DNA from: Komagataeibacter xylinus NBRC 15237
GTDB lineage: Bacteria > Pseudomonadota > Alphaproteobacteria > Acetobacterales > Acetobacteraceae
Length of the DNA: 64,000 nt
NCBI RefSeq assembly: GCF_001571345.1
Contig: NZ_BCTP01000004.1
Span: 62,001 to 126,000 of the forward strand
Direction: 5' to 3'
The position numbers and the translations under genes are program-made. Positions within the stretch are counted from its first letter, which is position 1. Each line of letters starts with the position of its first letter. The notes under the pieces were generated by a model. That model was given only the letters and a program-made list of their open reading frames with translations. It made no database searches and had not been told where the DNA came from. Below are positions 1,443 to 14,118 of this stretch, one piece after another.

Positions 1443-2639
1443 ATGATTGCGCTTGTGTCCCGGTTCAGGATGAGCCGGAAGAAGAAGCTGCTGCGTTGCG
1501 GCAGTATCCTGTCGGCCTGCGTGGCGCTTGGCGCCAGCATGCCCCATGCCCGCGCGGCCACCACGGTCAATTTTGGCAAGGACCAGTTCTTTACGCTCGG
1601 CCTGGGCGTGCGCGCGCAGTATCTGAGCCATGACACCACCATGCCCGGCAACAAGGATGCGGCAAGCGCCAGCGACCTGCGTATCTACATGGGCGCGCAG
1701 TTCCATAAATACGTCAAGTCAACGCTCAACCTCGAGCGCCTGCGTGATGGCAACTGGAACGTGCTTGATGGCGTGCTGCAGGTCGAGCGGTGGAAGGCGT
1801 TCAATATCTGGGGCGGGCGCATGCTCACGCCAAGTGACCGCTCGAACCTTGATGGGCCTTACTTCCTCAGCACCTATGCCTTTCCGATGGTGTCACAGTA
1901 TCCGGGTGCCTGGTCGGGCCGTGATGATGGCATCTCGGTGTGGGGCAGGCTGTTCAAGGATCGCTTCCGCTACGTGGCGGGTGTCTATCGGGGGCATAAC
2001 TGGGTGCGTGGCGGCTCCAATTATGGCGAGCACCCGCTCTTTGCCGCGCGCATGGAATACAACTTCCTCGATCCCGAGCCGTCGCCCGCCTACTACACGG
2101 CCAGCACCTATTACGGCAAGGCCGACATCCTGGCCATTGGCCTTGCGGGCCAGTACGAAACCGATGGCGTGGGCACGGCGCAGGACAAGGGTGACTACAA
2201 GGCGTGGAATGTTGATGGCCTGTTTGAAAAGCGCATCGGCGAGGGCGCGAAATACGGCGTCTATACGCTCGAAGGCGCGTATTACCAGTATTATACCGGT
2301 GGCGTGAAGGACATCGCGGCAGGTTACGGGCAGCGCTCGGCTGATTATGGCAATGTAGGTGGCGTGAATGATGGCACGGCCTTCCTGGCCAGCACGGCGT
2401 ATCTCATTCCCTACCGGCTGGGCTGGGGGCGGCTCCAGCCGCTGGTGCGTTACCAGCAGTTCCGCTTCAGGAAGGACATGTACGGCCCCGGCCACCCCAA
2501 GACCACCCAGCTTGATCTGGGCGGCAATTATGTAATGGATGGCCACAACCTGCGCTTTACGTTCGATTACGTGCGCTACAAGCCCATGGGCACGCGCGCG
2601 GTGGGGGCTTTTTTGCTGGGCATGCAGTTCCAGTACTGA
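1443..2639 (+). CDS. Outer-membrane beta-barrel porin
   Basis: I read this as a porin-like outer-membrane protein. A signal peptide (basic MSRKKKLLR, hydrophobic stretch, cleavage after ARA near residue 39) leads into a protein rich in alternating aromatic/Gly strands (YYTASTYYGKAD, YYQYYTGG, YQQFRFRKDMY). It ends in a C-terminal aromatic residue (FQY), the usual BAM-recognition signal. It resembles phosphate-selective-porin/OprP-like proteins of acetic acid bacteria. I chose the ATG at 1443 because AAGGGG lies about 6 bases upstream; starts at 1380 or 1470 are also possible. Sitting between urease and the urea transport genes, it could be an entry pore for urea or another small solute, but that is only positional inference. 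Confidence 0.75.
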   Translation: MIALVSRFRMSRKKKLLRCGSILSACVALGASMPHARAATTVNFGKDQFFTLGLGVRAQYLSHDTTMPGNKDAASASDLRIYMGAQFHKYVKSTLNLERLRDGNWNVLDGVLQVERWKAFNIWGGRMLTPSDRSNLDGPYFLSTYAFPMVSQYPGAWSGRDDGISVWGRLFKDRFRYVAGVYRGHNWVRGGSNYGEHPLFAARMEYNFLDPEPSPAYYTASTYYGKADILAIGLAGQYETDGVGTAQDKGDYKAWNVDGLFEKRIGEGAKYGVYTLEGAYYQYYTGGVKDIAAGYGQRSADYGNVGGVNDGTAFLASTAYLIPYRLGWGRLQPLVRYQQFRFRKDMYGPGHPKTTQLDLGGNYVMDGHNLRFTFDYVRYKPMGTRAVGAFLLGMQFQY

Positions 2640-2706
2640 AAACGGCTGGCCTGTTCATGTCATTTTATCAGGCGGCAGGGCTGACCCACCGCCAGGAGAG
2701 ATCGGA

Positions 2707-3147
2707 ATGCTGACCCTCAAGCGAAACGCCACGTATGGCTTCGCCCTGCTGGCAGGGATCATGGGCGCGGGCCTGGCACAGGCCGCCCCCGCGCCTGAAA
2801 AAATGGATTGCCGCCACCTGCTGGCCGAGGATGTGCGCCTGTCGGACCGGCTCGCCACCCTAAGCCACAGCGAAGCCCGGGCCGAGGCGCAGGACAAGGC
2901 CCCGGCGGAGAAGGGCTTTTTTGTCAAATTCGATCCCGTGCCGGGTTTTGGCATCATGAAAGGGGCGACGCTGACGCCTGCGGGCCACCCGATCAAGGAG
3001 GATGCCACCGAGCGCAGCCTTGACCAGGTACGCCAGAAACTGGCGGTCATACGTGGCCATGAGCAGCGCAGGATGTGCCCTGAAATCGGCGCGCCGGACA
3101 TGCAGCAGGACCGCCTTTCGGATGAGGCGGCAAGGGCCGTGCCCTAA
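2707..3147 (+). CDS. Small exported protein of unknown function
   Basis: The 146-residue protein starts with a clear signal peptide (MLTLKRNATYGFALLAGIMG, cleavage after AQA). The mature part is hydrophilic with two cysteines (MDCRHL and RRMCPE) that could form one disulfide. AGGAGA lies 7-8 bases before the ATG at 2707, which decides this start over upstream in-frame codons inside the porin tail. I do not recognise a domain. It follows the porin by 67 bp on the same strand and is closed by a double hairpin, so it may be co-transcribed with the porin. Confidence 0.7.
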   Translation: MLTLKRNATYGFALLAGIMGAGLAQAAPAPEKMDCRHLLAEDVRLSDRLATLSHSEARAEAQDKAPAEKGFFVKFDPVPGFGIMKGATLTPAGHPIKEDATERSLDQVRQKLAVIRGHEQRRMCPEIGAPDMQQDRLSDEAARAVP

Positions 3148-3228: not shown

Positions 3229-4134
3229 CTAGCGCTCCTGCAGCAGGCGCGATGCGGTAGCCGCCGCGGCGGCCCGCGTGCTCAGCCCGGTCTTGTTGTA
3301 GATCTGCTCGATATGCTTGTCGATCGTGCGCGGGCTGACCTGCAGGATATCGGCAATGTCGCGGCTGGTCTTGCCGCGTGATATCCACAGCAGCACCTCC
3401 GCCTCGCGCGCGCTCAGGCCCAGCCTGTCTTGCAATATGCGCTGGGGAACAAGTGGCTGCCGGCTGATGCGCAGCAGCAGTTCATCCGGGCCGCTCACGC
3501 CCACAAGGCTCAGCACAAGTTCGTTTTCACCGACATTATGGCGCATGAGCACGCCGCCGGGCGCGGGCAGGGGCGCGGGCAGGGGCGCGGGCAGGGGCAG
3601 GATCGCACCCGCGTCATTCGCGCCTGAAAGTTCGCGCAGTACAAGTCCCGCCTGCGGCGTGGCCCACAGCACATCGCCCGCATGGCTGGTGGCCAGCAGG
3701 AAGCGGCCCGCATGATCAAGCGCCCCATGGGCCGCGCGGATGCGTGCGGCGGATTCCATGCGTACGCCAATGCGGGCCATGACTTCCTCCAGCCGCAGGG
3801 GCTTGGTTACGTAATCGGCGGCACCCGCCTCAAAGGCGCGGATTACATGCTCGGTCTCGGTCAGGCCGGTCATGAAGATGATGGGCACAAGGCTCAGGCG
3901 CGGGTCATCATGCAGGGCCGCGCAGACTTCCCATCCGTTCATGCCGGGCATGAGGGCATCGACCATGATCAGGTCGGGCACGGTGCGCGCCGTGACCGCA
4001 AGTGCTGCCATGCCGGACTGCGCCAGCAGCACCGTATAGCCGCCATCAGTCAGTTTCTCGTCCATCAGGCCCAGAACGGCCGGGTCATCATCAATGACAA
4101 GAACGGATTTGCGGGAGGGATCGGGCACGGTCAT
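3229..4134 (-). CDS. Two-component response regulator, REC + LuxR/NarL-type HTH
   Basis: The protein has 301 residues. Residues about 9-125 form a receiver domain: acidic pocket DDD near 15-17, phospho-acceptor Asp59 in MVDALMPG, switch Thr in FMTG and conserved Lys in TKPLR. After a roughly 100-residue middle region with a Pro-Ala-Pro-Leu repeat, residues about 235-290 form a LuxR-type HTH (LSAREAEVLLWISRGKTSRDIADIL, then SPRTIDKHIEQIYNK). It overlaps the hybrid kinase gene by 4 bp, so the two are translationally coupled and should be cognate partners. The likely target is the divergent urtABCDE-nickel permease operon; this is inferred from gene order. Confidence 0.92.
   Translation of the reverse strand: MTVPDPSRKSVLVIDDDPAVLGLMDEKLTDGGYTVLLAQSGMAALAVTARTVPDLIMVDALMPGMNGWEVCAALHDDPRLSLVPIIFMTGLTETEHVIRAFEAGAADYVTKPLRLEEVMARIGVRMESAARIRAAHGALDHAGRFLLATSHAGDVLWATPQAGLVLRELSGANDAGAILPLPAPLPAPLPAPGGVLMRHNVGENELVLSLVGVSGPDELLLRISRQPLVPQRILQDRLGLSAREAEVLLWISRGKTSRDIADILQVSPRTIDKHIEQIYNKTGLSTRAAAAATASRLLQER
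3561..3596. repeat. 12-bp tandem repeat, three copies, inside the response-regulator linker
   Basis: Three perfect copies of GCGCGGGCAGGG (plus-strand reading), with a partial fourth, encode a PAPL repeat in the linker between the middle region and the C-terminal half of the response regulator. The 12-bp period keeps the frame, so copy-number change by slippage would alter linker length without breaking the gene. Confidence 0.9.
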
Positions 4135-7100
4135 GGCGTGGGTCGCTCCAGGTGGTGGCGCAGGGCTTCAAGCTGGTAGGACGCGGCAAGGGCCAGCAGC
4201 GGTTCGATCGCATCGCCCAGGGCCGGATGCTGCGCGCGCAGGGTGGTCAGGTGGGCGCGCAGGTTGCGCAGGTTGCCGCCATCAAGCAGGGCAAGCAGGG
4301 CCACGCGTTCCGCCTCGGGCACGGTGGCGGGTGTGTCGGGCGGGGCAGGTGGCGTGCTGTCAGCCTCGGGGGCGGGAAAGACCCATTCAAGGCCAAGCAT
4401 CTGGCCCATTTTGGTGATCAGGACCGACAGGTTCACCGGCTTGCCCAGCACGGGGCAGTCCTCAAGCGAGGGGACATGGCGGTTGGCACTTTCAACGAGG
4501 TTGCCGGTCAGGAACATGATCGGCACGCGGGCATAAGGGGACTGGCGGATGCGCAGGGCGAGGTCACGCCCATCCATGCCCGGCATGGACAGGTCGAGCA
4601 GCAGCAGGTCAGGCTGCACCAGCGCCAGGCGGTCGAGGCATTCCGCCCCGCTTTCCGCCCCTTCAAAGGCAAAGCCGCAGCGTTCAAGGATTTCGCGCAT
4701 GATGAGGCGGTGCTCGGCATTGTCATCCACCACCAGCACCGTGCGGCGTGGCCCTTCATACCCGGTGGGGAAGGCGGGCAGGCGCGGGGGAAGTTCCACC
4801 TGCCGGTCAGACAGCAAAAGCCGCACCCTGAAGCGCGATCCCTTGCCCGGCGTGCTGGTGAAGGTCAGTTCACCGCCCAGGATCTCGGTCAGCAGCCGGG
4901 TGATGGTCAGCCCCAGCCCGGTGCCCGGCACGCCCGTGCTGGCACTCCCGCGCTCAAAGGGTTCGAAAATGCGGGCATGATCTTCCGCCGCAATGCCGGG
5001 GCCGGTATCTTCTATGATGAATTCGGCAATCTGCCCCTGCCAGCGTGCCGAGAACGTGACCGTGCCCTGCCGGGTGAACTTGACCGCGTTTGACAGCAGG
5101 TTGAGCAGGATCTGGCGCAGGCGGTGCTCATCGCACGTGACCACGGCGGGCAGGTAGCCCGGCCGCCATACCAGCTCCAGCCCGCGCGCCTGTGCCTGCG
5201 GGCGGATCATCTGGGCCACGGATTCCACAAAGGCGGGCAGGGCGATGGTATCGGCATGCAGTTCGATCCGCCCCGCCTCGATGCGCGAGATGTCAAGCAG
5301 GCCGGACAGGATGCTGGTTATGTGCTCGCCACTTTCGCGCATGATGCCCAGCGCCTGGTGGCGCTCGGGCGGCAGGCGCGTATCGTGTTGCAGGAGCTGG
5401 ATATAGCCCATGATGGCGTTGAGCGGCGAGCGGATCTCGTGGCTGATGCCGCTGATGTAGCGGGTCTTGGCCAGGCTTGCCGCCTCCGCCTTTTCGCGTG
5501 CCAGCTTCAGCGCGTGGTCGGTGCGGCGGCGGGCACGGATCTCGTTCATGAGCTGGCGGGTCTGGTGCAGGGTCTCGCGCGTGGCGGTGCGCCGCCCCTG
5601 CTGCGCCATGACCAGCAGCCACGCCCCCACCGTGCCCGCCAGGAAGACCGGCACCATGATGCCACTCCACGCATGGCCCGTTGTCCATGCCAGCAGCCCC
5701 ATGCCCAGCATCATGCCCGCCAGCATGAGCGTAAAGCGTCCCGCAGGCGCTACGAGCCAGCGGCGCAGGCGGGGTGGCAGGGTGCGGAGCGGGGCGGCAA
5801 GCTGGCTGCCCATGCGGGTCGAGACCGGCTTGCAGCGGTCGCGGCAGCGGCCATCAAGCGAGCAGCACAGTGAGCAGATCGTGCCGCCATAGGCCGGGCA
5901 GGGCGCCATGTCCCGCGCCTCGAAGGTGTGTTCACAGATGACGCAGGTCATGGCGGGCCGGTCGTTCCAGCCAGCGGGCTGGGGGCGGGCCAGATAGGTG
6001 CGCCCCCCGGTCAGCCACGCCAGAACCGGTGCCGTGGCAAAGGCTACCCCCAGCGTCAGGAAAGGCGCATAGGCCGCGGCTATCGGGCCGAGATAGCCCG
6101 CAAAGGCCGTAACGCCCGTGGCGGCGGCAATGCCCCATGCCCCCAGTCCCACGATGTTGAAGTCCGGTAGCAGCGCGCGCTTGAACTCGACCAGGGCCGG
6201 GCTGAGGCCAAGCGGCTTGCACAGCGCCACATCCCCCAGTATCGCGCCGATCCACGCACAGGCCAGCACGCCATACAGCGTGATGCCGGTCTGGATGGTG
6301 CTGACCAGGCCTGCCTCCATCAGCAGGAGTGCGATCATGACATTGAAGATAACATAGAACACCCGCCCCGGATGGGTGTGGGTCAGGCGCGAGAAGAAGT
6401 TCGACCATGCCAGTGAGCCGGCATAGGCATTGGTGATGTTGACCTTGACCTGCGCCAGCGCCACCAGCGCCACCGTCAGCACGGTCGCGACCGGGGCGGG
6501 GGTGAAACTGCCCCAGGCAAAACGGTACATTACGCCGGGCTGCACCGCCTGCAGCGGTGAAAAGCCCGCCCGCAGCACCAACCATGCCAGAAACGAGCCT
6601 GCCAGCAGCTTGAAGGCATCAAGCACGATCCAGCCAGGGCCGCCCAGCACCAGCGCTGCCCACCATTGCCGCCGGTTGCAACGCGTGGGGTCAGGCAGGA
6701 AGCGCAGGAAGTCGATCTGCTCGGCACTCTGGCACACCAGCACGATCATGAGCGATGCGCCGGTGCCTACGGCAAGGGGGTCGATATGCCCCGGTGGCCC
6801 GTAGGGCGCACTGAAATGGGTCCACTGCCCCAGCAGTTCGGGGTGCAGGCCCGCCAGCACCACGAGGGGGACGAGATTGAGCGCCAGCCACACCGGCTGT
6901 GTCGCGATCTGGAAACGGGCGATGAACGTGATGCCCCATGTCACCAGCGGAATGATGAGCGCCGCGCACAGCAGGTACGCCAGCCACAGCTTCATGCCCA
7001 GCAGCCCGTGCAGCGTGCCCGCCAGGATCGCCGCCTCGAGCCCGAAGAAGATGAAGGTGAAAATGGCGTAGAGCAGCGAGGTGATGGTCGAGCCGATATA

Positions 7101-7448
7101 GCCAAAGCCGGTGCCGCGCGTAAGCAGGTCGATATCGAGCCCCGCGCGCGCGGCCGTGGCGCATAGCGGCAGGGTGATGGCGAAGATGACCGCCGTGACA
7201 AGGGCTATGGCGGCTGCCGTGTTGGCAAAGCCGAAGGCCAGCGTGAGCGTGCCGCCCATGGCCTCGAGGGCCAGGAACGAGATGGAGCCCAGCGCCGTGC
7301 GTGCCGCCCGCATGGGCGTGGCCATGCGCGCGCTGCGCGCGGTAAAGCGCAGCGCGTAATCCTCGAATGTCTGGTCGGCGGCCCAGCGGCTGTAGGCCCG
7401 GCGGGGGCGCACGATGCGCAGGCGGCTGGTCGGGTGCGGCAAGATCAC
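4131..7448 (-). CDS. NCS1 permease-hybrid histidine kinase fusion (putative urea/purine-type sensor)
   Basis: This 1105-residue inner-membrane protein joins four modules. Residues about 15-490 look like an NCS1 (nucleobase-cation-symport-1) permease with about 12 membrane segments. Residues about 500-545 hold a Cys-rich patch (CVICEHTF, CPAYGGTICSLCC, CRDRC) that could bind zinc. One or two further membrane segments follow (about 575-625). Next is a HisKA domain with phospho-acceptor His near residue 670 (ISHEIRSPLNAIMGY) and HATPase boxes (LLNLLSNAVKF, DTGPGIA, GTGLGL). A receiver domain then has its Asp near 952 (LLLDLSMPGMDG). A Pro-rich tail ends in a helical segment. It is divergent from urtA and coupled to a response regulator. 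I infer that it senses or transports urea or a related N-compound; the ligand is not shown by sequence. Confidence 0.9.
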   Translation of the reverse strand: MILPHPTSRLRIVRPRRAYSRWAADQTFEDYALRFTARSARMATPMRAARTALGSISFLALEAMGGTLTLAFGFANTAAAIALVTAVIFAITLPLCATAARAGLDIDLLTRGTGFGYIGSTITSLLYAIFTFIFFGLEAAILAGTLHGLLGMKLWLAYLLCAALIIPLVTWGITFIARFQIATQPVWLALNLVPLVVLAGLHPELLGQWTHFSAPYGPPGHIDPLAVGTGASLMIVLVCQSAEQIDFLRFLPDPTRCNRRQWWAALVLGGPGWIVLDAFKLLAGSFLAWLVLRAGFSPLQAVQPGVMYRFAWGSFTPAPVATVLTVALVALAQVKVNITNAYAGSLAWSNFFSRLTHTHPGRVFYVIFNVMIALLLMEAGLVSTIQTGITLYGVLACAWIGAILGDVALCKPLGLSPALVEFKRALLPDFNIVGLGAWGIAAATGVTAFAGYLGPIAAAYAPFLTLGVAFATAPVLAWLTGGRTYLARPQPAGWNDRPAMTCVICEHTFEARDMAPCPAYGGTICSLCCSLDGRCRDRCKPVSTRMGSQLAAPLRTLPPRLRRWLVAPAGRFTLMLAGMMLGMGLLAWTTGHAWSGIMVPVFLAGTVGAWLLVMAQQGRRTATRETLHQTRQLMNEIRARRRTDHALKLAREKAEAASLAKTRYISGISHEIRSPLNAIMGYIQLLQHDTRLPPERHQALGIMRESGEHITSILSGLLDISRIEAGRIELHADTIALPAFVESVAQMIRPQAQARGLELVWRPGYLPAVVTCDEHRLRQILLNLLSNAVKFTRQGTVTFSARWQGQIAEFIIEDTGPGIAAEDHARIFEPFERGSASTGVPGTGLGLTITRLLTEILGGELTFTSTPGKGSRFRVRLLLSDRQVELPPRLPAFPTGYEGPRRTVLVVDDNAEHRLIMREILERCGFAFEGAESGAECLDRLALVQPDLLLLDLSMPGMDGRDLALRIRQSPYARVPIMFLTGNLVESANRHVPSLEDCPVLGKPVNLSVLITKMGQMLGLEWVFPAPEADSTPPAPPDTPATVPEAERVALLALLDGGNLRNLRAHLTTLRAQHPALGDAIEPLLALAASYQLEALRHHLERPTP

Positions 7449-7506
7449 GGCTTTCGGGCGTTATGGGTGGCAGCGTGCATGATCGTAACGGAATGCCCAT
7501 GGGGGA

Positions 7507-7526
7507 CATACGCAGGAATGCGTATG
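7507..7526. promoter_or_regulatory. Perfect palindrome in the kinase/urtA divergent promoter region
   Basis: Arms CATACGCA and TGCGTATG are perfect inverted repeats of 8 bases around a GGAA spacer. The site lies 59 bp upstream of the kinase start and about 55 bp upstream of the urtA start. Position and symmetry fit a dimeric regulator site; the adjacent NarL-type response regulator is the obvious candidate. No experimental motif is known to me for this regulator. Confidence 0.55.
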
Positions 7527-7581
7527 GGAAGCGCTTTTATGTGCGCCGACAATGCAGGCAGCAGCAAAAGGACCATTCATC

Positions 7582-8922
7582 ATGCCCGTCACACTGCCTC
7601 ACCTTTCCCGTCGCGCGTTCGGACGTCTTGCCCTTGCCTCATCGGCGGCTGCTGTGGGGGGCATGTGGCGCGCGGCGCCAGCGCGGGCGGCGGCGCCGAC
7701 TGGCGAGCCGATCCGGGTTGGCATCCTGCATTCGCTGTCCGGCACGATGGCCATCAGCGAGACCACGCTCAAGGATGCCATGCTGATGCTCATTGCCGAG
7801 CAGAACCGCAAGGGCGGGCTGCTTGGCCGCCCGCTTGAAGCCGTGGTGGTGGACCCTGCCTCGAACTGGCCGCTCTTTGCCGAGAAGGCGCGCCAGCTCC
7901 TGTCGGTGGACAAGGCATCGGCGGTGTTTGGCTGCTGGACCAGCGTCTCGCGCAAGTCGGTGCTGCCGGTGTTCGAGGAACTCAACGGCATCCTGTTCTA
8001 TCCCGTGCAGTATGAAGGCCAGGAGTGCAGCCGCAACATCTTCTACACGGGTGCGGCCCCCAACCAGCAGGCCATCCCGGCGGTGGACTACCTGCTGAGC
8101 GAGGATGGCGGGGGGGCGAAGCGTTTCGCGCTGGTGGGCACGGATTACGTCTATCCGCGCACGACCAACCAGATACTGGTCAATTACCTCAAGGCCAAGG
8201 GCATCGCGGAAGCCGACATCATGGTCAACTACACGCCGTTCGGGCAGTCGGACTGGCAGACCATCGTCTCGCAGATCAAGGCCTTCGGCTCGGCGGGCAG
8301 GAAAACTGCCGTGGTCTCGACCATCAATGGCGACGCCAACGTGCCGTTCTACAAGGAACTGGGCAATCAGGGCATCTCCGCCACCGACATCCCGGTTATG
8401 GCCTTCAGCGTGGGCGAAGAGGAACTGGCCGGCATGGATACCGCCCCGCTGGTGGGCCAGCTTGCCGCATGGAACTACTTCGAGAGCATCGACACCCCGG
8501 CCAATACCGCCTTCATCAGGCAGTGGCACGAATTCACCAAGAATCCCAAGCGCACCACCAACGACCCGATGGAGGCGCATTACATCGGCTTCAACATGTG
8601 GGTGCAGGCGGTTACCAAGGCGGGCACCACCGATCATGACAGGGTGATTGATGCCATGATCGGCATCCGCCAGCCCAACCTGACCGGCGGCGTGGCCGAG
8701 ATGCTGCCCGACCACCACCTGACCAAGCCGGTCTATATTGGCGAGATACAGGATGACGGGCAGTTCTCGGTCGTGTGGAAGACCCCGGCGCTCGTGCCCG
8801 GGCAGGCCTGGTCGCCTTGGGTGCCGGAAACGAAAAATCTGATTGGCGACTGGAGCAAGCCCATTGCGTGTGGCAACTACAACACCGCCACCAAGACCTG
8901 CCTTGGGCACAGGCATGCGTAG
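7582..8922 (+). CDS. urtA: Urea ABC transporter substrate-binding protein UrtA
   Basis: UrtA is the periplasmic binding protein of the high-affinity urea importer, family of branched-chain amino acid-type receptors. The 446-residue product begins with a Tat-like signal (SRRAFGRLALASSAAAVGG, ARAAA cleavage region). The mature protein starts with IRVGILHSLSGTMAISE, matching UrtA, followed by typical segments VFGCWTSVSRKSVLPVFEELNGILFYPVQYEG and NDPMEAHYIGFNMW. The start at 7582 is favoured by AAAAGGA about 9 bases upstream; an in-frame ATG at 7552 is less well placed. It is the first gene of urtABCDE and overlaps urtB by 8 bp. Confidence 0.96.
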   Translation: MPVTLPHLSRRAFGRLALASSAAAVGGMWRAAPARAAAPTGEPIRVGILHSLSGTMAISETTLKDAMLMLIAEQNRKGGLLGRPLEAVVVDPASNWPLFAEKARQLLSVDKASAVFGCWTSVSRKSVLPVFEELNGILFYPVQYEGQECSRNIFYTGAAPNQQAIPAVDYLLSEDGGGAKRFALVGTDYVYPRTTNQILVNYLKAKGIAEADIMVNYTPFGQSDWQTIVSQIKAFGSAGRKTAVVSTINGDANVPFYKELGNQGISATDIPVMAFSVGEEELAGMDTAPLVGQLAAWNYFESIDTPANTAFIRQWHEFTKNPKRTTNDPMEAHYIGFNMWVQAVTKAGTTDHDRVIDAMIGIRQPNLTGGVAEMLPDHHLTKPVYIGEIQDDGQFSVVWKTPALVPGQAWSPWVPETKNLIGDWSKPIACGNYNTATKTCLGHRHA

Positions 8923-10519
8923 GGTCCGCACCACCTGCCTGCTGGCGGCGCTATGGCTCGGGGCCATGGTGCTGCCGGGCCACGGCGCGCGGGCGGATGC
9001 CTTTGCTGATCTGGCCAGCCCGCAGCTCGGGGCGGTCACGGCGGCGATTTCAACCCTTGCCGCATCGCCTGACCCGCAGGCAGAAGCCGCGTTGCAGGCG
9101 CTGGGCGAGCGCAGCCTGTTCGCCGCCCCCGATGGCAGCGTGTATATCCGCCACGGCGAAAGCTACGTGGAGGCCCGCACGGGCCAGCCCCCGGCTACCG
9201 TGCCGGAGGGGCTGAAGCCGATCCGCCTGAACAACCGCATCCGCACGGCGCTTGCGGGCGTGCAGGCGGGCAGGGACCTGCTGGCGCCCCAGCCCGCAAC
9301 GCGGCTCAGGGCCGCCGATGCGCTTTACGCCCGCCACGACCCGGCCATGCTGCCGGTGGTGGAGCATGCCCTTGCGGTGGAAAAGGATGCCGCCGTGCGC
9401 ACCCGGCTGACCGAGGTGCGGGCCGCGACCATTCTCGGCCAGCCGCCCGCCCCCGATGCGCTTGCCTCCCGGCTTGAGGCCGTGCGCACGCTTGGCGCGG
9501 TTGGTGGCGCGCAGGCGCGTGGCATCCTCGCCGGTGTGGCCGGGTCGGATGCGGAAGCGCCGGCGCTGCGCCGTGAGGCGCAGGCCGCCGTATCGCGCAT
9601 CGACTGGCACCTGCGCGCCTGGGGCGTGGCGCAGAATGCCTTTTATGGCCTGAGCTACGGCTCGGTGCTGCTGCTTGCGGCCACGGGGCTGGCCATCACC
9701 TTTGGCGTGATGGGCGTGATCAACATGGCCCATGGCGAGATGATGATGATCGGCGCCTATGTGACGTGGATGGTGCAGCAGGCCATCCGCGCAACCGTGC
9801 CTGCGCTGGAGCCGGTGGCCATCCTTGTGGCCATTCCAGTGGCGTTCGTGGTGTGCGGGGCGCTTGGCATCGTGATCGAGCGTGGGCTGATCCGCTTCCT
9901 CTATGGCCGCCCGCTCGAAACGCTTCTGGCCACATGGGGGCTGTCGCTCATCTTGCAGCAGGCGGTGCGTTCCATTTTCGGGCCGACCAACATCGCGGTG
10001 CAGACACCGGGCTGGCTTTCTGGTTCGGTTGCGGTGGGCGGCATGGACATCACGCTCAACCGGCTGGCCATTCTTGTCTTTGCAGGCCTGGTGCTGGGCG
10101 GGCTGATGCTGGTGCTGCGCCGCACGCCGCTTGGGCTGCAGATGCGCGCGGTCACCCAGAACCGCCGCATGGCGGCGCTGATGGGCATCCGCACGCCACG
10201 GGTCGATGCGCTGGCCTTCGGGCTTGGCGCTGGCCTTGCGGGGCTTGCGGGCGTTGCGGTCAGCCAGATTGACAATGTCAGCCCCAACCTCGGGCAGTCC
10301 TACATCATCGACAGCTTCATGGTGGTGGTGTTTGGCGGGGTCGGCAACCTGTGGGGCACGCTGGCGGCGGCCCTGGCGCTGGGCATGGGCGGCAAGGTGC
10401 TGGAGCCGACCATTGGCGCGGTCTCGGCCAAGATCGCCATTCTCGTGCTGGTCATCCTTTACATCCAGCGCCATCCGCGCGGCATGTTTCCCGTGCGCGG
10501 GCGGGGAGTTGAATCATGA
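8915..10519 (+). CDS. urtB: Urea ABC transporter permease UrtB
   Basis: UrtB (534 residues) has the family's long periplasmic N-terminal extension after a signal sequence (residues about 1-245, ending near AVSRIDWHLRAWG). A LivH-type permease domain with about 8-9 membrane segments follows, including GVINMAHGEMMMIGAY and the coupling-loop-like stretch RRTPLGLQMRAVTQNRRMAALMGI. The chosen ATG at 8915 overlaps the urtA stop (ATGCGTAG); upstream in-frame codons lie inside urtA. It pairs with UrtC to form the channel and overlaps urtC by ATGA. Confidence 0.95.
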   Translation: MRRVRTTCLLAALWLGAMVLPGHGARADAFADLASPQLGAVTAAISTLAASPDPQAEAALQALGERSLFAAPDGSVYIRHGESYVEARTGQPPATVPEGLKPIRLNNRIRTALAGVQAGRDLLAPQPATRLRAADALYARHDPAMLPVVEHALAVEKDAAVRTRLTEVRAATILGQPPAPDALASRLEAVRTLGAVGGAQARGILAGVAGSDAEAPALRREAQAAVSRIDWHLRAWGVAQNAFYGLSYGSVLLLAATGLAITFGVMGVINMAHGEMMMIGAYVTWMVQQAIRATVPALEPVAILVAIPVAFVVCGALGIVIERGLIRFLYGRPLETLLATWGLSLILQQAVRSIFGPTNIAVQTPGWLSGSVAVGGMDITLNRLAILVFAGLVLGGLMLVLRRTPLGLQMRAVTQNRRMAALMGIRTPRVDALAFGLGAGLAGLAGVAVSQIDNVSPNLGQSYIIDSFMVVVFGGVGNLWGTLAAALALGMGGKVLEPTIGAVSAKIAILVLVILYIQRHPRGMFPVRGRGVES

Positions 10520-11655
10520 ACCCGTTTTCAACCCGTGCCCCGCGCTCCCTGCGCGGCGTGATCTGGATGGCGGCGGCCGTGGTGGCGGCGGCAGGCGGGC
10601 TTGCCGCAGCCAGCCTGCTGCCCGAGGGCAATCCGCTGCATGCCTCCGTCTTCGTGGTGTCGCTGGCGGGGAAATACCTGTCCTATGCCATGCTGGCGCT
10701 GGCGGTGGATCTGGTGTGGGGCTTTGCTGGCATCCTTACGCTGGGGCATGCCGCGTTCTTCGCGCTGGGGGGGTATGCCATGGGCATGTACCTCATGCGC
10801 GAGATCGGGGCGCGGGGCGTTTATGGCAACGCCAGCCTGCCGGATTTCATGATCTTCCTCTCATGGAAGAGCCTGCCGTGGTACTGGTGGGGTTCAGAGC
10901 ATTTTGCGTGGGCCGCCGTGCTGGTGGTGGCGGTGCCGGGGCTGCTGGCTAGCGTGTTTGGCTGGCTTGCCTTCCGTTCGCGCGTATCCGGGGTGTATCT
11001 GTCCATCATCACGCAGGCGCTGACCTACGCGCTCATGCTGGCGTTTTTCCAGAACGGGCTGGGCTTTGGCGGCAATAACGGCCTGACCGACTTCAAGGAC
11101 ATCCTTGGTGCCGACCTGCATGCGCCCCTGACCCGCGCCGTGCTGCTGGTGGCGACCGGTGTGCTGCTGGCCACAAGCCTGCTGGCCGCGCGTTTTGTGG
11201 TGGGCAGCCGTTTTGGCAGCCTGCTGGTGGCCGTGCGCGATGCCGAAAGCCGCACCCGCTTCCTGGGTTACCGCCCCGAGCAGGCCAAGCTGCTGGTGTG
11301 GGTGTTCTCGGCCATGATCGCAGGCTTGGGTGGTGCGCTTTATGTCACGCAGGTTGGCATCATCAACCCCGGTGAGTTCGCGCCCGCCAATTCCATTGAA
11401 TCCGTGATCTGGGTGGCGGTGGGCGGTCGTGGCACACTGTGCGGGGCGGTGCTGGGGGCCATACTGGTCAATCTGGGCAAGACGCTGTTCACGGCGTGGC
11501 TGCCGGAGTTCTGGCTGTATGGGCTGGGGCTGCTGTTCATCTGCACCACTTTGTTCCTGCCCAACGGACTCATGGGGCTGTGGCGGCATGTCCGTAAACC
11601 GCCGCCGGAGGAAGTCACCCCCGAAGTGGCGGACACGCAGGGAGACGAGGCATGA
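10516..11655 (+). CDS. urtC: Urea ABC transporter permease UrtC
   Basis: This is a LivM-type permease of 379 residues, the second membrane subunit of the urea importer. About ten hydrophobic segments are visible, with family motifs WGFAGILTLGHAAFFALGGYAMGMY and the cytoplasmic loop VAVRDAESRTRFLGYRPEQAKL. The QVGIINPGEFAPANSIESVIWVAVGGRGTL region is characteristic of UrtC. The start overlaps the urtB stop and the stop overlaps the urtD start, both by 4 bp. Confidence 0.95.
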   Translation: MNPFSTRAPRSLRGVIWMAAAVVAAAGGLAAASLLPEGNPLHASVFVVSLAGKYLSYAMLALAVDLVWGFAGILTLGHAAFFALGGYAMGMYLMREIGARGVYGNASLPDFMIFLSWKSLPWYWWGSEHFAWAAVLVVAVPGLLASVFGWLAFRSRVSGVYLSIITQALTYALMLAFFQNGLGFGGNNGLTDFKDILGADLHAPLTRAVLLVATGVLLATSLLAARFVVGSRFGSLLVAVRDAESRTRFLGYRPEQAKLLVWVFSAMIAGLGGALYVTQVGIINPGEFAPANSIESVIWVAVGGRGTLCGAVLGAILVNLGKTLFTAWLPEFWLYGLGLLFICTTLFLPNGLMGLWRHVRKPPPEEVTPEVADTQGDEA

Positions 11656-12392
11656 CCGATGACCTGCTGCTCGACATGCGCGATGTGAGCGTGACGTTTG
11701 ACGGTTTTCGCGCCATCAACAATCTCAGCCTTGCGCTGCGCCCGGGCGAGATGCGCGCCATCGTCGGCCCCAATGGCGCGGGCAAGACGACGATGATGGA
11801 CATCATCACCGGCAAGACCCGGCCTGATACCGGCACCGTGCGCTTTCAGGGCCGCGACCTGACCCGGCTTGATGAACCCGCCATCGCCCGGCTGGGCATT
11901 GGCCGCAAGTTCCAGAAGCCCACCGTGTTCGAGGCGCTGAGCGTGACCGAGAACCTGCTGCTGTCGCTCAAGGGCGTGCGCGCGCCCTTTGCCGTGCTCA
12001 TGGCGCGCCGCAGCGCGGGCGAGCGCGAACGGATCGACCGCCTCCTGCACCTGACCCGGCTGGAAGCCGTGGCCGACCAGCCCGCGGGCGGCATGAGCCA
12101 CGGGCAGAAGCAGTGGCTCGAGATCGGCATGCTCATGGGCCAGGAGCCTGAACTGCTTTTGGTGGATGAACCCGTGGCGGGCATGACCGATGCCGAGACC
12201 ATGGCCACCGCCGACCTGCTGCGCGAGATCAACCGCACCCGTAGCGTGGTGGTGGTGGAGCATGACATGGATTTCGTGCGCGCTCTCGGCGTGGATGTGA
12301 CGGTGCTGCACGAAGGCAGCGTGCTGGCTGAAGGCACGCTGGATGCGGTCAGCGCCGACCCGCGCGTGATCGAGGTTTATCTTGGGCGCTGA
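11652..12392 (+). CDS. urtD: Urea ABC transporter ATP-binding protein UrtD
   Basis: This is a LivG-type ATPase of 246 residues that energises urea import. Walker A GPNGAGKTT lies near residues 38-46. The signature is degenerate (MSHGQKQWLEIGM) as is normal in UrtD. Walker B LLLVDEPVAGMTD and the switch His in VEHDMDFV follow. It is coupled by ATGA to urtC. Confidence 0.95.
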   Translation: MTDDLLLDMRDVSVTFDGFRAINNLSLALRPGEMRAIVGPNGAGKTTMMDIITGKTRPDTGTVRFQGRDLTRLDEPAIARLGIGRKFQKPTVFEALSVTENLLLSLKGVRAPFAVLMARRSAGERERIDRLLHLTRLEAVADQPAGGMSHGQKQWLEIGMLMGQEPELLLVDEPVAGMTDAETMATADLLREINRTRSVVVVEHDMDFVRALGVDVTVLHEGSVLAEGTLDAVSADPRVIEVYLGR

Positions 12393-12427: not shown

Positions 12428-13123
12428 ATGCTCGAGATTAACGACGTGCACCTGCATTATGGCGCGGCGATTGCCCTGCGTGGGGTCTCGCTTGCAGCAA
12501 GGGCAGGGGCCGTGACCTGCGTGCTGGGCCGCAATGGCGTGGGCAAGACCAGCCTGATCCGCGCCATTACCGGCATGCATGCCACAAGTGCTGGAACGAT
12601 CATGTGGGAGGGCGAGGATATTACCAGACTCGCAGCCTATGACCGCGCCCGGCGCGGCATCGCTACCGTGCCGCAGGGGCGCGACATCTTTCCGCTGCTC
12701 AGCGTGCGCGAAAACCTTGAGACCGGCTTCGGCCTGCTGCCACGCGGCCAGCGCCGGGTGCCTGATGAAATATTCGACCTGTTTCCCGTGCTGGCCAGAA
12801 TGCGCGACCGGCGCGGCGGCGACCTGTCGGGCGGCCAGCAGCAGCAGCTTGCCACTGCGCGCGCGCTCGTCATCCGTCCGCGCCTGCTGGTGCTTGATGA
12901 ACCGACCGAGGGCATCCAGCCCAGCATCATCAAGGATATCGGCACCATCATCGGCATGCTGCGCGACCGGGGCGACATGGCCATCGTGCTCGTGGAGCAG
13001 TATTTCGATTTTGCCTATGAACTGGCCGACACGATTGCAGTGCTCGACCGGGGCAAGGTGGTGCTGGCAGGCCAGGCCCGCGACCTCGTGGCGGAGGATG
13101 TGCGCGCCTACATCACCATCTGA
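12428..13123 (+). CDS. urtE: Urea ABC transporter ATP-binding protein UrtE
   Basis: This is a LivF-type ATPase (231 residues), partner of UrtD. Walker A GRNGVGKTS is near residue 36, the signature LSGGQQQQLATARAL near 137, Walker B LLVLDEPTEGIQP and switch region LVEQYFDFA follow. A strong AAAGGGAG precedes the ATG by about 12 bases in the 35-bp gap after urtD. It completes urtABCDE. Confidence 0.95.
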   Translation: MLEINDVHLHYGAAIALRGVSLAARAGAVTCVLGRNGVGKTSLIRAITGMHATSAGTIMWEGEDITRLAAYDRARRGIATVPQGRDIFPLLSVRENLETGFGLLPRGQRRVPDEIFDLFPVLARMRDRRGGDLSGGQQQQLATARALVIRPRLLVLDEPTEGIQPSIIKDIGTIIGMLRDRGDMAIVLVEQYFDFAYELADTIAVLDRGKVVLAGQARDLVAEDVRAYITI

Positions 13124-13146: not shown

Positions 13147-14118
13147 ATGTTCATGGCTGCCCGGCATGGACCATACGCCATTGCATGCGCCCTGCTGCTG
13201 GCCAACCTTGTGGCATGGGCGTGGGCCATGACTACGCTGGGGTGCGCGCCCGTCCTGCTGGGCGCAGCCGGGCTGGCATGGACATTTGGCCTGCGACACG
13301 GGCTTGACGCCGATCATATCGTAGCGATCGACGTGGTGACGCGCAGGCTCATGCAGGCGGGACGCGCGCCTTCGCTGGTGGGGCTGTTCTTCTCGCTCGG
13401 GCATTCCACCGTGGTCGTTCTCGCTACCCTTGCGCTGGTTGCACTACCCGTGCAGGGCTGGCTGGAGCAGTGGCATCTGGTGGGTGGTGGCTTCGGCACG
13501 CTGGTCTCGGCGGTGTTCATGCTTGCGGCCGTCATGGCCAATGCCCGCATGGCCCTGGGCCAGTGGCGGGCGTTGCGCCAGCCTGCCCGGTTGCCTCCGC
13601 CTCCCGCAGGCTTTGTGTTTGGGTGGGCAGGGCGGTGGATTGGCCGGAGCTGGCAGATGTACCCGCTCGGTTTCCTGTTCGGGCTGGGTTTTGATACCGC
13701 AAGTGAAATCGGCCTGCTGGGCATGGCGGCGGTTCAGGCCCATCATGGGCTGGGTCTTGCGGGGGTCATGACGTTCCCGCTGCTTTTTACGACGGGCATG
13801 GCGCTGGTTGATACGCTTGATACCCTGCTCATGTGCCGGGCCTACGGCTGGGGCATGCGCTCGGGCCGCAGGCGCGTGGCTTATGACCTGGGCATCAGCC
13901 TTGTCTCCCTTGTCGCGGCGGCAGGCATTGGCGCGATCGAACTGGGGCAGAAGCTGCCGGGCAATGCGGCGCAGGGCAACCTGCTCATGCGGAGCCTGAT
14001 GGCGGCTGGCGACCATCTGGCCGGGGTGGGTGCGGGTATCGTACTGGTTTTTCTGGCCCTGTGGGGCGGTGCCGTTGTGATCAGCCGCAGGCAGGCCAAT
14101 CGTATCTCCCCGACCTGA
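13147..14118 (+). CDS. NiCoT-family nickel/cobalt permease (HoxN/NixA type)
   Basis: This inner-membrane secondary transporter for Ni2+ (323 residues, about eight membrane segments) has the family signatures: RHGLDADHI in the second helix (the metal-selectivity HX4DH motif), LFFSLGHSTVV, LGFDTASEI and GMALVDTLDTLLM. It starts 23 bp after urtE with GAAAGGG as ribosome site, so it belongs to the urt operon. Nickel is the urease cofactor, so co-expression with urea import and proximity to ureFG argue for nickel rather than cobalt. Confidence 0.93.
   Translation: MFMAARHGPYAIACALLLANLVAWAWAMTTLGCAPVLLGAAGLAWTFGLRHGLDADHIVAIDVVTRRLMQAGRAPSLVGLFFSLGHSTVVVLATLALVALPVQGWLEQWHLVGGGFGTLVSAVFMLAAVMANARMALGQWRALRQPARLPPPPAGFVFGWAGRWIGRSWQMYPLGFLFGLGFDTASEIGLLGMAAVQAHHGLGLAGVMTFPLLFTTGMALVDTLDTLLMCRAYGWGMRSGRRRVAYDLGISLVSLVAAAGIGAIELGQKLPGNAAQGNLLMRSLMAAGDHLAGVGAGIVLVFLALWGGAVVISRRQANRISPT

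Follow-up and report, generated by a model that had tools for sequence, protein, structure and literature searches.

A candidate receptor kinase for urea and short amides built on an NCS1-type carrier module

Introduction

Some bacterial histidine kinases carry a transporter module. In CbrA, a small linker domain connects an SLC5-type carrier module of the LeuT fold with the histidine kinase part (PMC13022988), CrbS and RpuS are likewise SLC5-STAC histidine kinases (PMC5715377, PMC9100948), and an ammonium sensor kinase combines a carrier for a nitrogen compound with a kinase (PMC5764959). Here, we describe a gene from a stretch of 64,000 nucleotides of Komagataeibacter xylinus NBRC 15237 (assembly GCF_001571345.1, contig NZ_BCTP01000004.1, positions 62,001 to 126,000 of the forward strand; hereafter the window) that encodes an NCS1-type carrier module, an eight-cysteine domain, a histidine kinase and a receiver domain in a single protein. 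Both urea and formamide serve as nitrogen sources in the environment; the family of this fusion protein offers a candidate direct receptor kinase for urea together with a predicted operator.

The fusion resembles CbrA, CrbS and RpuS in arranging a carrier module, a small linker domain and a histidine kinase in one chain, and CbrA further in having a lysine in or near the Na2 site (K335 in the fusion, K196 in CbrA), but it departs from the SLC5-STAC kinases in its NCS1 carrier, in an eight-cysteine domain and hydrophobic hairpin in the place of STAC, and in its urea and amide gene partners. With the Amt-type ammonium sensor kinase Ks-Amt5 it shares the pairing of a nitrogen-compound carrier with a kinase, but there the fold is that of Amt and the compound is ammonium. 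By analogy, the fusion would work like CbrA and the Amt-type kinase while standing outside both families, as carrier, linker and partners differ. Judged from its sequence, it appears to belong to the known kind of transporter-kinase transceptors, to which the NCS1 carrier, the linker and the urea and amide partners seem to be new; if so, a second LeuT-type carrier family, with an unrelated linker, has arrived at the design of CbrA.

Genes akin to its partners have been described. The fmdCABDEF genes of Methylophilus methylotrophus comprise formamidase and uptake genes for short amides and urea and are induced by formamide and urea; unlike the fusion loci, they are described with a putative positive regulator, and the excerpt names no sensor kinase (PMC10781810). 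In Pseudomonas veronii, urtABCDE occurs with formamidase and amidase genes, and the authors suggest formamide uptake (PMC13209695), and in Dechloromonas aromatica a 'histidine kinase' of 1131 residues and a receiver protein of 308 residues are listed beside UrtA (PMC2907700). This 1131-residue kinase probably belongs to the family of the fusion. We found no carrier module noted in the excerpts of the Dechloromonas, P. veronii or fmd accounts, and our searches of open-access literature (subscription papers being mostly outside their scope) yielded neither a description of the fusion family nor a named direct urea receptor kinase of bacteria.

Architecture and invariant residues of the fusion

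The fusion gene occupies positions 4131 to 7448 of the minus strand, starts with GTG and encodes 1105 residues. A sequence-only reading of this DNA had proposed that a permease, a cysteine-rich stretch, a histidine kinase and a receiver are joined in one 1105-residue protein, and the open reading frame (ORF), Pfam matches and profile comparison bear this out; of the span it gave, 4131 to 7526, the lower end stands, but the ORF starts at 7448 and the 78 extra bases are promoter sequence with an in-frame stop codon. From the N-terminus, the protein consists of the NCS1-type module with 12 transmembrane helices (TM) (residues 1-490, positions 5979 to 7448), the eight-cysteine domain (residues 502-539, positions 5832 to 5945), a hydrophobic stretch (residues 574-610, positions 5619 to 5729), HisKA (residues 660-726, positions 5271 to 5471) with phospho-acceptor H670, HATPase_c (residues 773-879, positions 4812 to 5132) with N787, D814 and G846, and the receiver (residues 904-1012, positions 4413 to 4739) with phospho-acceptor D952 and K1003, the last three domains all above Pfam cut-offs. 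With its HisKA phospho-histidine, HATPase_c N box and receiver phospho-aspartate, the fusion is a hybrid sensor histidine kinase. Its closest named relatives are from Komagataeibacter and Acetobacter (94% for K. nataicola).

Hydropathy averaged over 70 relatives revealed 12 hydrophobic stretches between residues 55 and 475, a count in which small fragments were merged and the long stretch 124-173 was taken as two, and in addition the stretch at 574-610, which had gone unmentioned in the sequence-only reading and whose length leaves room for two helices, presumably a hairpin. The kinase stop codon is overlapped by the gene for a response regulator with REC and GerE domains (positions 3229 to 4134, minus strand; Pfam), so that the proposed coupling to a NarL-type regulator also holds, and a regulator lies downstream of the fusion in 155 of 159 distinct fusions.

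Invariance was scored over 164 full-length frames representing 160 distinct modules. All 164 retain the eight cysteines (C502, C505, C517, C525, C528, C529, C535 and C539), which confirms the cysteine-rich stretch, as well as H670, E671, N787, D814, G846, D952 and K1003; at position 908, 163 frames have aspartate and one has a gap, and at position 909 aspartate is present in 156. Within the membrane module, E138, Q240, E243, Q244, D246, R249, Q333, N337 and N340 are equally unvarying (164/164). A search of 200 phylum genomes for the cysteine domain gave 28 matches in 26 genomes, every one inside a gene of the fusion's family. We regard the domain as probably cytoplasmic and as probably binding two zinc ions.

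Kinship of the membrane module with NCS1 carriers

Residues 1-628 of the fusion gave no Pfam match at E values up to 10, none of 24 family members matched PF02133 at E values up to 1, and a sequence search of the PDB with the module returned no meaningful match. By contrast, profile-profile comparison (hhalign) of the family module with 22 NCS1 sequences yielded a probability of 98.8% (E 7e-17) over 429 colinear columns, against 2.2% (A1) and 0.4% (A2) for SSF and 0.5% for AA_permease_2, values at which the module does not qualify as an SLC5/SSF protein. A remote stand-alone permease (L216) scores 188 bits with the family profile and itself exceeds the PF02133 cut-off. We conclude that, on the evidence of profiles, the membrane module is an NCS1 protein that the Pfam model misses; the sequence-only reading, which would have fallen with a profile pointing elsewhere, survives here.

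Residues were placed onto Mhp1 by way of ordinary NCS1 proteins. N340, invariant in the family, is the equivalent of Mhp1 N318, which we take to be the substrate-cavity asparagine of TM8, and this residue as well as the colinear 12-TM profile is held in common with Mhp1 and other NCS1 carriers. Other cavity positions differ from Mhp1: Q121 is replaced by the invariant E138, W117 by F or L, and W220 by A in 156/164. Position 335, at or beside the residues that presumably supply the Na2 hydroxyls in Mhp1 (S312/T313), is K in 162/164 and R in the other 2/164, a placement that hinges on a one-residue gap in TM8. On this placement, the substrate asparagine is kept, the Na2 hydroxyls give way to a basic residue in every frame, and the fused kinase sets the family further apart from ordinary NCS1 carriers.

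Distribution of the family

Of 385 genomes sampled from the class, 27 matched the module profile at E 1e-10, including one partial match (G522) and one ordinary NCS1 protein (G336); of 398 sampled from the phylum, 58 matched at E 0.001, with 52 matches above 650 bits and six weak or partial. Both samples were drawn evenly. A scan of named genomes confirmed at least 573 stretches, and the best 80, which were kept, range from Acetobacter and Bradyrhizobium to Pseudomonas, Alcanivorax, Marinobacter and Thauera. The window's genus is represented in the family sample by four genomes, its own among them, and two of these had no module match at 1e-60. The window, 38 loci of its family, the 80 named stretches and 60 loci from the class and phylum samples, hand-picked before their context was known, made up a set of 179 loci with 181 modules, 168 of them with a kinase; the 164 distinct fusions span Alpha-, Beta- and Gammaproteobacteria. 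At one locus (L039, positions 6742 to 9880), about 2 kb of other sequence lies between kinase and receiver and interrupts the gene.

Urea and short-amide genes accompany the fusion

Sorted by the relevant gene that lies nearest in the fetched stretch, the 164 distinct fusions comprise 100 with an amide-type gene, 53 with a urea-type gene and 11 with neither. For 144 of the 153 fusions that have such a gene, it is no more than 1.5 kb away, and in 136/164 it is a divergent gene of the UrtA/FmdD type. The 60 class and phylum loci alone give the same picture (56/60), and when flanks of 1.5 kb were used throughout, urea or amide genes were found at 138 of 156 fusions, as opposed to 0 of 64 control loci of ordinary NCS1, SSF and amino-acid permeases, all from Acetobacteraceae. 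The kinase is widespread, yet 153/164 fusions are near urea or short-amide genes, and so the suspicion that it might commonly occur far from such genes was not borne out.

The two kinds of operon separate cleanly among the fusion loci. Where an FmdD-type gene is nearest (98 distinct fusions), formamidase (FmdA) or amidase is also present at 89 and urease at 0, an arrangement like that of fmdCABDEF, whereas the 43 distinct fusions with a UrtA-type gene nearest have urease genes at 25 and formamidase or amidase at 1. FmdA, aliphatic amidase and FmdB were each checked on one representative, which exceeds its NCBIfam cut-off (equivalog level for FmdA and amidase); the representative FmdD-type binding protein also exceeds the cut-off for UrtA, and the database model alone therefore cannot split FmdD from UrtA. 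Five genomes of the phylum sample contain two strong copies, and in four of them (G919, G800, G779 and G715) one copy is by fmd genes and the other by urease or urt genes; in the fifth (G655) both are near fmd genes, the second copy being on a different kinase. Since amide partners (100) are commoner than urt or urease genes (53), the ligand range of the family is likely to be urea plus short amides. The sequence-only reading had named urea or a purine-derived compound as the ligand: context speaks for urea, to which short amides are added, and lends no support to purines, although no search was aimed at purine genes.

A conserved palindrome between kinase and urtA

The gap of 103 bases between the kinase gene and urtA contains a perfect palindrome, ATACGCA-N4-TGCGTAT (positions 7508 to 7525), which recurs in six named relatives, one of which differs at one arm base. 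From its place and symmetry, we predict that it is the operator of the NarL-type regulator. Its core, TACG-N8-CGTA, occurs upstream of 107 of 179 modules, as compared to 0.6 in shuffled sequences, and 0 times inside the gene, and spacings of 4-7 and 9-12 gave 0 or 1 upstream occurrences. It is present upstream of 100/162 distinct fusions and of 48/91 fusions less than 80% alike, and precedes both fmd- and ure-linked fusions. It also precedes three fusions of one genus (L299, L300 and L301) whose fetched stretches contain neither urea nor amide genes, a pattern consistent with autoregulation. In its own genome, the 18-bp site is single at up to one mismatch; two mismatches admit six further places versus 2 for a reversed control, a weak excess. 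Within the window, three mismatches give 2 matches, at chance (mean 2.2), and the perfect site alone has fewer than three mismatches.

Proposed mechanism

We propose that the fusion acts as a receptor kinase derived from a transporter, that its ligand is urea or, in fmd-linked members, formamide or other short amides, and that it drives its own uptake operon; we put the probability of this reading at roughly 0.6. Urea would be bound in the module's central cavity, which retains N340 and has the invariant E138. The lysine at or beside the Na2 site probably stands in for the sodium ion, and ligand binding would shift the module between its inward and outward states. The change of state could then be relayed through the eight-cysteine domain and the hairpin to the kinase. 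H670 would hand its phosphate on to the partner NarL-type regulator, and the fused receiver would tune this flux. Acting at the palindrome, the regulator would switch on urtABCDE, or elsewhere the fmd or urease genes, together with its own gene. Genomes with two copies, one in each context, are a natural experiment on urea and amide specificity, and the kinase-free relatives would suit transport assays.

Several observations weigh against this proposal. E138 and K/R335 are also present in several ordinary NCS1 relatives and are therefore no marker of a sensor. Residues 134/136 of TM3, at or beside the position of Mhp1 W117, are F/A in 101/102 fmd-linked and 12/53 ure-linked full-length fusions, but this difference rests on four independent pairs, too few for significance, and is a lead only. 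Four of the 11 context-free fusions have less than 1.5 kb of upstream sequence, which leaves seven true exceptions among 160 fusions with usable upstream sequence, and a second, partly read fusion of one genome of the family sample (G179, locus L068) likewise lacks such a gene in the part of the contig fetched. In favour of the proposal, context labels cluster on a tree of 99 modules less than 80% alike: the number of changes is 9 for the fmd label (30.3 on average when shuffled) and 11 for the ure label (27.2 when shuffled), and 0 of 500 shuffles came as low for either. Such clustering, however, is also expected from plain joint inheritance of sensor and operon. Gene context cannot tell the sensing of urea from that of its product or of nitrogen starvation. 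Finally, the palindrome core was picked after the palindromes of the window and its relatives had been seen, the spacing control being run later, and the exact core is missing in 43/91 fusions less than 80% alike.

Kinase-free relatives and alternative readings

Permease and cysteine domain also exist together without a kinase. A stand-alone protein of Acidiphilium adjoins a fusion and keeps all eight cysteines, and stand-alones from Acetobacteraceae (six genomes, four genera) keep C502, C505, C525 and C528 only; this retention of four of the eight suggests that the domain has two separate metal sites. In five of these six genomes urease genes lie within 4 kb of the stand-alone, and searches of the six found no UrtA, no UT above cut-off and no UreI/AmiS, a result that leaves room for SSF-type and other urea carriers. 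One stand-alone (L069) is 62 bases from an amidase gene (positions 7681 to 8844) that appears in the contig as two ORFs. In a module tree rooted on NCS1 relatives, the stand-alones are near the root, where long branches meet, and we therefore claim no order of origin. The remote L216 (positions 7949 to 12373) is an NCS1 stand-alone that lacks the cysteine domain. The genes after it encode a CN-hydrolase amidase and a binding protein of the UrtA/FmdD type, and L216 may represent a further group of amide carriers. At two other loci (L067, positions 4694 to 9242, and L327, positions 8502 to 11183), the permease and eight-cysteine module is attached to another histidine kinase, one that lacks a receiver, and formamidase is nearby. 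In place of a NarL-type regulator, L067 has as its neighbour a further hybrid kinase containing two receiver stretches.

These relatives invite a wider and more tentative reading, to which we give clearly less credence than to the receptor proposal: the NCS1 modules might constitute a novel class of carriers for urea and short amides, in which the kinase-fused members would be urea or formamide transceptors acting through an eight-cysteine zinc domain in the role of STAC, the kinase-free members would be urea permeases of urease-bearing acetic acid bacteria, and residues 134/136 of TM3 would help to set urea versus amide specificity.

Two alternatives, which we regard as unlikely to a similar degree, divide the protein differently. 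The NCS1 module could be a mere membrane anchor or state reporter for an eight-cysteine domain that senses metal or redox state as the real input, as the unvarying cysteines, the restriction of the domain to this family in the 200-genome sample and the nickel genes of the window would have it. The cavity residues are just as invariant, however, and the Acetobacteraceae stand-alones have four of the eight cysteines together with the cavity residues and, in five of six, urease neighbours. Moreover, fmd-linked members serve formamidase and aliphatic amidase, neither of which, to our knowledge, requires nickel. Alternatively, the module could be chiefly a working carrier for urea or amides whose flux is reported by the kinase, as proposed for CbrA, which transports histidine and shares the Na2-site lysine (PMC13022988). 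The stand-alones beside urease in genomes without a match to the known urea carriers searched for are in keeping with this, but the room left there for other carriers lessens their weight, and in 136/164 cases the fusion is divergent from a dedicated ABC importer, which would make a second carrier redundant.

The remaining two readings we consider highly improbable. A general nitrogen-status sensor co-inherited with the operon would agree with the usual joint occurrence of sensor and operon and with the small number of independent context switches on well-supported branches (4 pairs), but the best module tree has about eight switches, four of the five two-copy genomes have copies in opposite contexts, and the palindrome is unique in its own genome, pointing to a dedicated local circuit. 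A nucleobase, hydantoin or allantoin, sensed as a forerunner signal of urea, would suit the NCS1 kinship (characterised NCS1 carriers bind such ligands, Mhp1 being a hydantoin transporter), but sits badly with partners that are urt, urease, formamidase and amidase genes, purine and allantoin genes not having been searched for, and with the change of the Mhp1 aromatics W117 and W220 to F/L and nearly always A, respectively.

Neighbouring genes in the window

Divergent from the fusion, on the plus strand, are urtA for the urea ABC substrate-binding protein (positions 7552 to 8922), urtB (8843 to 10519; its start codon is uncertain and its ORF overlaps urtA), urtC (10516 to 11655), urtD (11652 to 12392) and urtE (12428 to 13123), all above NCBIfam cut-offs, followed by a NicO nickel permease (13147 to 14118) above its Pfam cut-off, as the sequence-only reading had it. 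On the other side, also on the plus strand, are ureF, cut by the window edge (1 to 594), ureG (591 to 1205; NCBIfam) and an outer-membrane porin (1380 to 2639) with a match to ExtI porin below cut-off; these three genes, like the palindrome, had gone unmentioned in the sequence-only reading. A similar porin stands beside urtA in distant loci (L062, L131, L168, L172, L286, L288, L293, L296, L297 and L331) and, by analogy with FmdC for amides, may be an outer-membrane pore for urea. Between porin and regulator, a hypothetical protein (positions 2539 to 3147) without a Pfam match is kept in close relatives.

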